A stretch of 64,000 nucleotides of DNA from Neobacillus sp. PS2-9 (GTDB lineage Bacteria > Bacillota > Bacilli > Bacillales > Cytobacillaceae). Of the stretch, positions 18,699-23,170 are shown piece after piece; the stretch's first letter is position 1, and each line of letters begins with the position of its first letter. The position numbers and the translations under genes were made by a program. The stretch is taken from assembly GCF_030915525.1 (NCBI RefSeq), contig NZ_CP133269.1, positions 4,065,001-4,129,000 of the forward strand. The letters run 5' to 3'. Under the pieces are notes generated by a model that worked only from the letters and a program-made list of their open reading frames with translations, had not been told where the DNA came from and searched no databases.

Positions 18699-18905
18699 CG
18701 TTACTTCCCCCAATTTCTCTTTTTGTGCATTGTTAATTCTACAACAACTTATCTGACGAGGAAAGTTTTTAAAGGTTACAAAAAAATGTACTTTTTTATA
18801 AAATTCCTCTCACTGAAAGAATATATGTAACGTAATATAAGTTTTTTATATTTTTTACGTTACTCGCTTTATTTTTCAGAAAATTAAGAATAAGTTGTGA
18901 ACTAT

Positions 18906-18935
18906 CTTACAATAATAACTATTTTTGTATATAAT
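18906..18935 (+). promoter_or_regulatory. Probable sigma-A promoter of the F0 mini-operon
   Basis: CTTACA, 18 bases, TATAAT, about 80 bases before the TTG start of the a-like gene. The rest of the 318-base gap from 18699 shows only AT-rich sequence and no other gene. Confidence 0.5.
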
Positions 18936-19016
18936 AAACATGACATAAGTTTTCTATTTTCTCCTCGTTCCATTACTAAAGTCCATTCATTTTTTGTTAA
19001 AGGGAGGTTGGACATC

Positions 19017-19730
19017 TTGGAACATACAAGACCACAAATATCGTTGTTTCATTTAACGTTTGATTTATCCATTCTACTTACCACAACTATTGTCGCTATA
19101 ATTGTTTTCCTCATTGCCTATCTATTGACAAAAAATTCTTCCTTACACACTCCAAATAAATGGCAAAATCTCATGGAATGGATTTTAGAGTTTGTTAAGG
19201 ATATTATGAATAACTCCATTGGAAACTCTAACAATATATTCATCTTATCCACTGGTGTAGTCTTACTAATGTATCTACTTATTTCAAATCTTTTAGGAGT
19301 ACCATTTTTAATTGTTACTACTGAAGAACATCCTGTGTCTTGGTGGAAATCTCCTACTGCAGATGCACATGTAACCATGACCCTGGCTATAATGATAATT
19401 GCCTATACACATTTTATTGATATCCGTATGAATGGATTTAAACATTTTGCTCTTAGCTTTTTCAAACCCTTTACATTCTTTTTTCCTATCAATGCTGTAG
19501 AACAACTTGCAACAACCTTAACCTTAGGGTTACGTTTGTTTGGAAATATTTATGCAGGGGAAATCCTTCTTGCCCTGTTAGCAAATGCAGTAAATCATGG
19601 TTTTATTGTTGCTGCTCTGGCATCTATCCCTATGTTGATTTGGCAGGCATTTTGTATCTTTATTGGCGCCATACAGGCTTATATCTTTGTCACTCTGACA
19701 ATGGTTTATATTGCTCACCGATTAACATAA
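19017..19730 (+). CDS. ATP synthase F0 subunit a-like protein (orphan)
   Basis: 237 residues from the TTG that lies 9 bases behind AGGGAGG; the longer frame to 18897 adds 40 residues with no binding site. The length is normal for Bacillus subunit a. Key parts are intact: the essential arginine in LTLGLRLFGNIYAGE (Arg173) and GAIQAYIFVTLTMVYIAH (217-234) in the last helix. Subunit a forms the ion half-channels beside the c-ring. What is odd is the setting: only a short b-like gene and an AtpZ-like gene follow, with no c, delta or F1 genes. It may replace the housekeeping subunit a under some condition, or act in another membrane complex. The central loop (TEEHPVSWWKSPTAD) looks usual. Confidence 0.88.
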   Translation: MEHTRPQISLFHLTFDLSILLTTTIVAIIVFLIAYLLTKNSSLHTPNKWQNLMEWILEFVKDIMNNSIGNSNNIFILSTGVVLLMYLLISNLLGVPFLIVTTEEHPVSWWKSPTADAHVTMTLAIMIIAYTHFIDIRMNGFKHFALSFFKPFTFFFPINAVEQLATTLTLGLRLFGNIYAGEILLALLANAVNHGFIVAALASIPMLIWQAFCIFIGAIQAYIFVTLTMVYIAHRLT

Positions 19731-19753
19731 TAATATGAAGGGAGTTGATTGTT

Positions 19754-20152
19754 TTGGGCGACTTTTCATTATTCGGACTTCCAGTTTCTTTAGGGACCAT
19801 GATTTATCAAGCTATCATTTTTACCATTCTTGTTTTTATACTAAAAAAGTTGGTTTTTAAAAAGATGGTGGATATTCTTGAGAAGAGGAAACACCACATC
19901 GAAAGACAGCTACTTTTAACTGAACAGTATAAGCTGGAAGCGGAACAACACTTAGAAGCGAGCAAAGACGTTCTTAAACAGGCAAAAAAAGAGGCAAGAG
20001 AGATCCGAACGTATTCTGAGAGTGAAGCAAAGCAAATTATTCATGACGCTAAAGTAGAGGCCAAAAATATAGTAAAAAAAGCAAAAGAAGAGGCCTTTTT
20101 GCAACATGCCCGACCCTTTTCACACTCAGACCAAATAAAAGAGGGGGCATAA
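19754..20152 (+). CDS. ATP synthase F0 subunit b-like protein, short
   Basis: 132 residues from the TTG (MGDFSLFGLPVSLG) set 9 bases behind AAGGGAG. One N-terminal membrane helix (about 14-32, containing MIYQAIIFTILVF) is followed by a long charged helix with many Lys/Glu/Ala (about 36-115), the usual tether and dimerisation region. Housekeeping Bacillus b subunits run to about 165-170 residues; here the C-terminal part that holds subunit delta is missing and the end is unrelated (HARPFSHSDQIKEGA). The gene is 3 bases before the AtpZ-like gene. It may pair with the housekeeping b or bind something other than F1. Confidence 0.82.
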   Translation: MGDFSLFGLPVSLGTMIYQAIIFTILVFILKKLVFKKMVDILEKRKHHIERQLLLTEQYKLEAEQHLEASKDVLKQAKKEAREIRTYSESEAKQIIHDAKVEAKNIVKKAKEEAFLQHARPFSHSDQIKEGA

Positions 20153-20155
20153 TGT

Positions 20156-21106
20156 ATGAAACACAAGTTCACTAAATATTTAGGTAGAATTACGGAAAAC
20201 CTAGAAATTGGACTAGAAGAGAAATGGATTTATGTTCACTATACAAAAGGATCAATTGAAAAAACAGCGTGTCTGTTAAAGAATGAAAATAAATCAGAGG
20301 AAGCATATCTTGAGGCTTTTCTTGAAGAAAATAAGGTGTCTGAGGAAATGAGAAAAGAAATTAAAACATTTTTTATAAACGGACAGTCACAAAGCGATAA
20401 ACATTGGAAGGATTCGACAAACTTTCTAATGAAAGCCGTGTCCTTGAATATGGTTTTTGGTATAGCTATTGCTATCTCCGTTTTTGCTGGCTATAAACTA
20501 GGTGATTTATTAGATAATCGTTATGATATCTACCCTTTATTTACTCTAATTGGGATATTTCTAGGTATTGGTGTTGGAGGGGCTACCGTTTATTCATTGG
20601 TCCATAAATATTTTCTAACCTCACAAAAAAATGAGATACCTGAACCAAAAGTGGAACAAATTAAAGACTATCCCGTTATAGAAGTTAGTATCGATGAGGT
20701 TCGAAAAGCGGTTAGAACCTTTTCCGATAATTTACCAAAGGGTGTCTATAGGACCATCCTGGTTAAAGAGGATCATAGTATCGACTTCAACCAACTTGCT
20801 CCCATCCTCGGAGGTGTCCCATCTAAAGATTTCTATATGTCTAAAGAAACTTATGATTTATTTGAAGAGCATGAGAAACAAATCCCCATCGAAATGGATA
20901 TGGTGCAAAAGGCTGTTGACCAATATGTAAAGGACCATAAGGAGTTTCCTATGTTAAAATTTGATCCGCAGCACAGAGTGAATTATTATCAGTTATTACA
21001 AGACCACTATCTAAAGAAAACACCCGAAATCCAATTTTATCTCACAGACCTAGATGGATTAATCACACATATAAAACCAAAGAAAAAAAACTCCTCTCTA
21101 TCTTGA
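20156..21106 (+). CDS. AtpZ/AtpI-like membrane protein with added N- and C-terminal soluble domains
   Basis: 316 residues. The centre (about 88-152) is an AtpZ/AtpI-type two-helix hairpin: LNMVFGIAIAISVFAGYKLG, DLLDNRYDIYP, then LFTLIGIFLGIGVGGATVYS. Normal AtpZ proteins are only about 70-90 residues. Here an acidic soluble region of about 85 residues precedes it, and about 160 residues follow, with the sequences VYRTILVKEDHSIDFNQLAPILGG and EIQFYLTDLDGLITHIKP. I do not recognise either extra part with confidence. AtpI/AtpZ proteins help c-ring assembly or Mg2+ supply to the synthase. It starts 3 bases after the b-like gene, inside one operon. Confidence 0.75.
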   Translation: MKHKFTKYLGRITENLEIGLEEKWIYVHYTKGSIEKTACLLKNENKSEEAYLEAFLEENKVSEEMRKEIKTFFINGQSQSDKHWKDSTNFLMKAVSLNMVFGIAIAISVFAGYKLGDLLDNRYDIYPLFTLIGIFLGIGVGGATVYSLVHKYFLTSQKNEIPEPKVEQIKDYPVIEVSIDEVRKAVRTFSDNLPKGVYRTILVKEDHSIDFNQLAPILGGVPSKDFYMSKETYDLFEEHEKQIPIEMDMVQKAVDQYVKDHKEFPMLKFDPQHRVNYYQLLQDHYLKKTPEIQFYLTDLDGLITHIKPKKKNSSLS

Positions 21107-21117
21107 GAGGATTTTTT
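21091..21117 (+). terminator. Terminator of the F0 mini-operon
   Basis: TCCTCTC, six-base loop, GAGAGGA then T5. It overlaps the stop codon of the AtpZ-like gene, so the operon ends here and holds only three genes. Confidence 0.8.
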
Positions 21118-22804: not shown

Positions 22805-23170
22805 ATGGGCGTAAAGTTTATTAAAATATCTGTCTGTTATTTTGTTGTTGGGGTATGTTTAGGTATGTATATGTCAATGACTGAGAAGTTTGATTTTAGG
22901 CCTGTTCACGTCCATATTAATTTATTAGGTTGGACGGCCATGACTCTTGCTGGACTTATTTATGTAGCTTTTCCAACAGCGGCGGAAACAACTTTAGCGA
23001 AGGTTCACTTTTGGCTCCATAATATTGCATTGCCCATCATGATGATCGGGCTTGCCTTTTTAGTATCAGGAGTAAAGGCTGCAGGGCCAGCCGTTGCGGT
23101 CGGTGGCACCCTAATGGTATTAGGCATCATCCTCTTTGCCATTAACATCCTTAAGAATGTGAAGAACTAA
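22805..23170 (+). CDS. CcoN-like four-helix protein (cytochrome oxidase subunit I fragment family)
   Basis: 121 residues with four hydrophobic helices. The motif HVHINLLGW resembles the low-spin haem region of cbb3/NorB-type subunit I, and KVHFWLHNIALPIMMIG follows. The protein is far shorter than subunit I (about 450-500 residues) and lacks the copper and high-spin haem ligands, so it cannot be an oxidase alone. Stand-alone proteins of this kind occur in Bacillaceae. It could bind one haem or act as an assembly or quinol-interacting protein. The ribosome binding site AAAGGGGG is strong and the gene stands alone. Confidence 0.75.
   Translation: MGVKFIKISVCYFVVGVCLGMYMSMTEKFDFRPVHVHINLLGWTAMTLAGLIYVAFPTAAETTLAKVHFWLHNIALPIMMIGLAFLVSGVKAAGPAVAVGGTLMVLGIILFAINILKNVKN

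Follow-up and report, generated by a model that had tools for sequence, protein, structure and literature searches.

Why a bacterium with a complete F1F0 ATP synthase also maintains a compact set of stray F0 genes is the question raised by a locus of Neobacillus sp. PS2-9 (assembly GCF_030915525.1), found in a 64,000-nucleotide stretch of its genome, referred to here as the window (contig NZ_CP133269.1, positions 4,065,001 to 4,129,000). At positions 19017-21106 of the window lie three genes for a second F0 subunit a (a2), a short b-type subunit (b2) and a protein with an AtpZ hairpin (z2). Such a rotor-less, arm-less F0 set beside a complete ATP synthase, conserved among certain Neobacillus-type bacteria of soil, hints at an undescribed use or regulation of the energy rotor. 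The explanation favoured here, plausible but held tentatively, is that a2-b2-z2 docks on the housekeeping c-ring and serves as a regulated proton port that is not tethered to F1. No description of a gene set of this kind was found in the open-licence literature.

All three genes are located on the forward strand and are separated by 14 bases (a2/b2) and 3 bases (b2/z2), which excludes a c gene between them. The a2 gene (19017-19730) has a TTG start and encodes 237 residues that match PF00119 with 163.8 bits (cut-off 33.9) and NCBIfam TIGR01131 with 146 (cut-off 102.6), and fall just under the cut-off of the narrower NF004479 (261.1 against 268). The b2 gene (19745-20152) encodes 135 residues as called, although aligned relatives suggest that the likely start is the TTG at 19754 (LGDFSLFG), giving 132; it matches PF00430, which covers the membrane helix and coiled coil, with 60.9 (cut-off 28), and is under the cut-off of TIGR01144 (43 against 65.5). 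z2 (20156-21106, 316 residues) consists of an N-terminal domain (N-domain, residues 1 to about 85), an AtpZ hairpin (99-146; PF09527, also named ATPase_gene1; 40.1, cut-off 26.6) and a DUF3939 domain (174-305; PF13075; 194.6, cut-off 21.3). A Pfam search with residues 1-90 returned nothing significant, and the NCBIfam AtpZ model TIGR02230 scored 14.4, under its cut-off of 46.7. The first-pass annotation, made from the letters alone, had proposed a tight set of a full-length a, a b-like and an AtpZ-like gene, and the Pfam matches and short gaps bear this out; for the third gene the AtpZ hairpin stands, while the N-domain and DUF3939 had gone unnamed.

Whether this set has a rotor of its own is answered by the rest of the genome, a single contig of 5,192,194 bases with two subunit a genes and one c gene. 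The other a gene (a1) sits in a complete operon elsewhere (L003), where the genes, named from gene order and sequence, are atpZ, atpI, a, c, b, delta, alpha, gamma, beta and epsilon. The set at 19017-21106 is therefore an extra one, and a displaced housekeeping a is ruled out. The a2-b2-z2 operon has no c, delta or F1 gene, and the sole c gene lies in the main operon, as expected from the earlier proposal of a set lacking these genes beside a housekeeping operon. Of the two findings that the first-pass annotation considered fatal to its reading, a second complete atp operon is absent from the genome, and a lack of any other subunit a is contradicted by a1. N-ATPases, or alternate F1F0 enzymes, are likewise extra F-type sets beside the housekeeping one, but an N-ATPase is a complete enzyme; a2 scores 69.1 against the TIGR03306 cut-off of 302.1 and b2 34.8 against the TIGR03321 cut-off of 224.7, and these scores, with the single c gene, rule out a second complete ATPase or N-ATPase.

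The same holds across relatives. Exactly one c gene is present in 41 of the 42 genomes of the family that carry b2, the remaining draft (G365) showing none, and genomes with two a2-b2 sets still have one. With one c gene per genome, any ring used by a2 must be the housekeeping c-ring. The housekeeping c carries EALP at its ion-binding site, a motif that we take to be of the H+ type. Sodium specificity of a2-b2-z2 is thus without support, as is the earlier suggestion that the set might serve another ion.

Subunit a2 retains what a working subunit a would need. Compared with the housekeeping F0 of Bacillaceae (atpZ-atpI-atpB-atpE-atpF; PS3 structures 6n2d/6n2y), a2 matches residues 1-236 of PS3 a (E 1.6e-67) with the same core residues, b2 corresponds to its b in the membrane segment and over most of the coiled coil, and AtpZ is encoded in both places. 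The differences are that a2-b2-z2 lacks c, delta and F1, b2 lacks the delta-binding domain, a2 belongs to a separate clade and the AtpZ of z2 is fused to the N-domain and DUF3939. In an alignment of 39 a2 rows and 21 hand-picked housekeeping a rows that include a1 (the interrupted a2 of L122 and L130 being left out), N91, D116, H132, R173, N177, E182, Q220 and Y231 (a2 numbering) are invariant in all 39 a2 rows, so the alignment of Arg173 and the channel residues proposed at first pass comes out in favour of an intact core. R173, N177, E182, Q220 and Y231 are presumably the essential arginine and half-channel residues, and from these residues a2 looks channel-competent. Further positions are characteristic of a2: H118, Y130 and N159 in 39/39 rows, Q163 and T226 in 38/39, and C213 in 37/39.

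These invariant residues bear on the possibility that a2-b2-z2 is a non-conducting regulatory or assembly factor, which would bind free c-rings, AtpI or F0 intermediates, or compete with a1 and b1, and so set the amount of active enzyme. The absence of a rotor and of an arm to F1 would suit such a role, as would the weak non-ATG starts of some Neobacillus a2 genes, fitting for a protein made in low amounts. A pure dummy, however, needs neither the essential arginine nor the channel residues, yet all 39 rows keep them, and this explanation is considered quite unlikely. As regards the starts themselves, the aligned a2 start is non-ATG in 7 of 40 rows (TTG 3, ATC 2, ATA 1, ACG 1). Non-ATG starts with a good ribosome-binding site and a TTGGACATC-like spacer ahead occur at position 19017 of the window and in L131, L132, L133, L134, L135 and L137, and further ones in L006, L008, L010, L011, L012 and L015; ATC, ATA and ACG would be uncommon start codons.

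a1 and a2 share 47% identity, and in the tree of the rows above all 39 a2 sequences fall on one side of a branch and the 21 housekeeping sequences on the other, with a support of 96 in the Shimodaira-Hasegawa-like approximate likelihood-ratio test (SH-aLRT), from a quick method that carries a long-branch warning and with one very long a1 row (L158). On this separation, subject to the same warning, the candidate that a2 is another species' imported housekeeping a is ruled out. Likeness between a1 and a2 is uneven along the chain: 64% in helix 5, which holds the arginine, 56% in helix 6 and 35-37% in residues 1-80, with helix labels assigned by us and a1_L158, a2_L104, a2_L108 and a2_L125 left out of the comparison. 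The same two helices show the strongest conservation inside each of the two groups as well (77-83%).

The pattern of change is relevant to a second alternative, in which a2 replaces a1 in the whole F1F0 under some condition, held by b1 or a b1/b2 heterodimer, and alters the proton path (pH, proton motive force or slip). The entire core of a working a is retained in a2 and the c-ring has to be shared, both of which such a swap would require. A mere exchange of a, on the other hand, has no need of b2, which invariably accompanies a2 in the genome and is short in every case. The regions in which a1 and a2 differ most are found outside helices 5 and 6, in the half that we take to meet b, so binding of b1 is doubtful. 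The lysine beside the channel that is presumed to mark alkaliphile a subunits occurs in only 2 of the 39 a2 rows, against glycine in 36. A swapped-in subunit is accordingly rated unlikely.

All three genes are kept for their proteins. The ratio of non-synonymous to synonymous substitution rates (dN/dS) lies at 0.04-0.19 for a2 (14 pairs), at 0.05-0.27 for b2 (14 pairs) and at 0.06-0.25 for z2 (12 pairs), with many dS values above 1, two z2 pairs yielding no dS through saturation and the z2 value of L124/L125 covering the DUF3939 gene only; the housekeeping a and b give 0-0.11 (five pairs each). Such low values indicate purifying selection on a2, b2 and z2.

What a2 could do on the ring depends on b2, which shares 28% identity with b1 over their common part and aligns to residues 6-114 of the 168 of PS3 b and to 6-100 of the 156 of E. 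coli b. In E. coli b the dimerisation domain spans residues 62-122 and the C-terminal domain binds delta, according to the available part of PMC6131620. By this division b2 comprises the membrane segment and a large share of the dimerisation domain, and the delta-binding part is absent. The shortness is general, the 41 b2 rows having 122-135 residues and the 16 housekeeping b rows aligned from their start 172-177. Lacking the delta-binding domain, b2 alone cannot act as a stator that ties a2 to F1, and the alternative stator of the first-pass annotation is not supported in the form in which it was put. Within the coiled coil, the b2 of the window, L124 and L111 have four residues fewer than housekeeping b, a deficit that may shift its register.

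Taken in this way, a2-b2-z2 would be a stator-side F0 module without a rotor, borrowing the housekeeping H+ c-ring. a2 would provide a second pair of half-channels with the essential arginine, and a b2 dimer, too short to reach delta atop F1, would anchor and steady a2 in the membrane. The AtpZ hairpin of z2 would join a2 and b2 there, with the N-domain and DUF3939 as a cytoplasmic gate or sensor. With no tie to F1 through b2, a2 would let protons turn or slip the ring without ATP synthesis, as a regulated bypass or clutch, and the set would be produced under conditions set by a conserved upstream element. The reading as a proton port is preferred because the channel residues are kept, helices 5 and 6 are the most alike, dN/dS is low, there is one c gene, the delta-binding domain is missing from b2, the three genes stay with one another, and there is an engineered precedent for several a subunits on one ring. 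The further step, a natural bypass of the rotary motor in which an a2 that has no F1 stator sits on the housekeeping ring and z2 controls the opening and closing of an F1-independent proton path through the rotor, is possible but rather doubtful. If the port is real, a conserved additional a, paired with a short b, would be a natural, rotor-less part that shares, gates or uncouples the c-ring, and AtpZ and DUF3939 would gain a testable partner.

The precedent is a designed PS3 ATP synthase that has several proton-conducting a subunits on one c-ring, as supposed for a2; the available part of its report (PMC12229609) describes natural enzymes as having one. Several points weigh against the proton port. 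The analogy is weakest in that every extra a of the engineered enzyme has a full-length stalk to F1 (PMC12229609, same part), whereas b2 stops short of delta and a2-b2-z2 is a putative complex. A leak through an open F0 would come at a high cost, and the gate that should prevent it is a supposition. The likeness of a1 and a2 in helices 5 and 6 may in part reflect the general slowness of these helices. No usable model of z2 was obtained, the AlphaFold prediction from 12 rows being poor (predicted local distance difference test, pLDDT, 61.5; predicted template modelling score, pTM, 0.34). Finally, a2 and b2 are useful in some lineages only and have been lost repeatedly, so they are dispensable.

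Other structural searches with z2 gave little. DUF3939 alone, also from 12 rows, was again poorly predicted (pLDDT 53.2, pTM 0.47), Foldseek with the z2 model found no PDB match at E ≤0.001 (best 0.25), and the z2 profile had only a weak match among solved chains (E 0.077). No paper on DUF3939 was found in the open-licence literature.

How widely the set occurs was examined with a b2 profile. In the family and order draws it tells the two kinds of gene apart, b2-type genes matching at E 6e-34 or better and housekeeping b at 1e-21 or worse. b2-type genes are present in 42 of 193 family genomes, nine of which hold two: 28/61 in the genus of the window, 5/5 in genus g122, 6/8 in g123, 1/2 in g128 and 2/21 in g3, with none listed for other genera among the 193. 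An even draw of the order gave 5 of 299 genomes, two in the genus of the window and three in genus g32 of another family, and in a class draw of 398 genomes only the window's own genome had a b2-type gene. The class-wide search gave one match below 1e-26 among 397 genomes (G481, 3.4e-27), which lies between the two score groups and is preceded by a housekeeping-type a and c.

From the 53 b2-type loci outside the genome of the window (50 from the family search, 3 from the order search), 40 loci in 32 genomes were picked by hand. a2 is directly upstream of b2 in all 40, a z2-type sequence follows b2 in 39 (the exception being L120), and the order is a2-b2-z2 in 11 of the 11 loci retrieved with z2, so chance does not account for the arrangement. 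The co-occurrence survey suggested earlier thus finds the three genes always together in the examined loci, save for the one without z2. A tblastn search with the c of this genome gave no match at any of the 40. The neighbouring genes are of about seven kinds, sorted by eye, that vary by clade and across clades indicate no pathway. As the neighbourhoods vary while the order stays, a2-b2-z2 persists as a unit and is an evolutionary unit. A plasmid cassette is ruled out, with no z2 match among 72,556 plasmid records. In L118 and L121 a second a2-b2-z2 set lies directly behind a candidate channel gene, which we take to be a two-helix K+ channel with a nucleotide-binding domain.

The modules of z2 are less firmly joined than the set itself. 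AtpZ and DUF3939 are both recognised in z2; in other places each is a protein by itself, AtpZ being encoded in the atp operon. A full-model match to the N-domain plus AtpZ is found in 46 of the 193 family genomes, namely all 42 with b2 and G418, G422, G321 and G366. DUF3939 occurs in 88 of the 299 order genomes, mostly in frames of about 150-200 residues, and its stand-alone genes have varying neighbours. z2 stops short of DUF3939 in L106, L116 and L119, and in genus g32 (three loci) the AtpZ part and DUF3939 are two adjoining genes. Elsewhere a2 and b2 are lost and DUF3939 is kept, with a2 traces in G439 (L258) and G319 (L263), a b2 tail before the retained gene in G422 (L265), an a2 N-terminal scar in G438 (L211) and no trace in G418. 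Judged from these remnants, the scars in G438, G439, G319 and G422, each immediately ahead of a retained DUF3939 gene, are a series of in-place losses of a2 or b2. In genus g3, DUF3939 is accompanied at seven loci by a portion of the membrane stretch, with a2 and b2 absent, and by eye these loci look like the site that holds the a2-b2 set in G375. Distribution and losses together make a2, b2 and the N-domain-AtpZ part the core, and DUF3939 a partner with an independent existence.

Losses of this sort could also mean that a2 and b2 are decaying duplicates, old copies of a and b with little function of their own that ride with a useful AtpZ-DUF3939 gene. The remnants beside DUF3939 in the four genomes, the traceless loss in G418 and the seven g3 loci would agree with decay, as would the interruption of the a2 frame in 4 of 40 loci (L104, L108, L122 and L130); L104 and L108 lie in sister genomes and are interrupted at different positions, and in these loci assembly error and decay are not distinguished. 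Purifying selection on all three genes, the nine family genomes with two b2-type genes and the invariant core residues speak against it, and decay is regarded as very improbable.

The hairpin of z2 leads to one more alternative, a complex for cation uptake that works as a transporter or accessory independently of c. It is modelled on the role of AtpZ in Mg2+ acquisition reported for B. pseudofirmus in the available part of PMC4453477, and agrees with the AtpZ hairpin being above the Pfam cut-off both in z2 and in the separate g32 protein. The c-facing residues of a2 would then have no reason to persist, few tests stand behind the family name of PF09527 and the genome already has an atpZ-atpI pair, so a role in cation uptake appears distinctly improbable.

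If the proton port is regulated, signals upstream of a2 are of interest. A conserved element (CAGAAAATTA...TTGTGAACTATCTTACAA) at 18877-18912 (+) is a putative operator; in 14 Neobacillus-type rows (L123 and L129 left out) the block 18877-18916 has column identities of 0.84-0.95, and its flanks mostly 0.6-0.7. A pattern scan places a probable -10 element, TATAAT, behind it at 18930-18935 (+), within a block (18927-18936) of column identity 0.84 in the same rows. A ribosome-binding site (AAAGGGAGG) with a nine-base spacer precedes the a2 start (18999-19016, +; column identity 0.85-0.92). In a 31-base form with at most three mismatches the conserved block is found in 24 of 60 genomes of the genus, once in each, and the reversed-pattern control gave 0. 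Twenty-one of the 24 copies precede a2-b2-z2 (27 of the 60 genomes have b2); in the other three (G418, G422 and G438) a2 and b2 are gone and the DUF3939 gene is retained.

The core of the element, TTGTGAACTATCTTACAA (18895-18912), resembles Rex or Fnr operators. Set against the consensus for S. aureus Rex, TTGTGAAW4TTCACAA, as given in the available part of PMC2883068, it has 3 mismatches over 18 positions. Redox control of a2-b2-z2 is on this resemblance a lead only. A short Rex-like pattern with two mismatches has 45 sites in the genome against 42 in the reversed control, and this lack of enrichment speaks against a regulon. narG, the marker used for nitrate respiration, occurs in 17 of 27 genomes with b2 and 15 of 33 without (Fisher p 0.20), and a link to nitrate respiration, as marked by narG, is rejected on this basis; this result, too, speaks against a regulon. 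Rex controls genes of the NADH dehydrogenase and lactate dehydrogenase kind. Palindromes of the TTGTGAA type are present in the same genome at G000:C1:3174359 (L218) and 1662714 (L223), and the genes behind them are presumably those for NADH dehydrogenase and lactate dehydrogenase.

The first-pass annotation had given the operon its own promoter and terminator; the promoter is retained as a prediction, with the TATAAT behind the conserved block, and the terminator is not. A pattern scan finds, at 21092-21111 (no strand assigned), a hairpin flanked on either side by T runs that resembles a terminator and overlaps the end of z2, but the 4 kb scanned hold three such sites against 2.4 expected in shuffles, so a terminator is not established. 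Further downstream, at 22805-23170, a 121-residue membrane protein has a weak partial match to haem-copper oxidase subunit I (27.7, Pfam cut-off 34.8).
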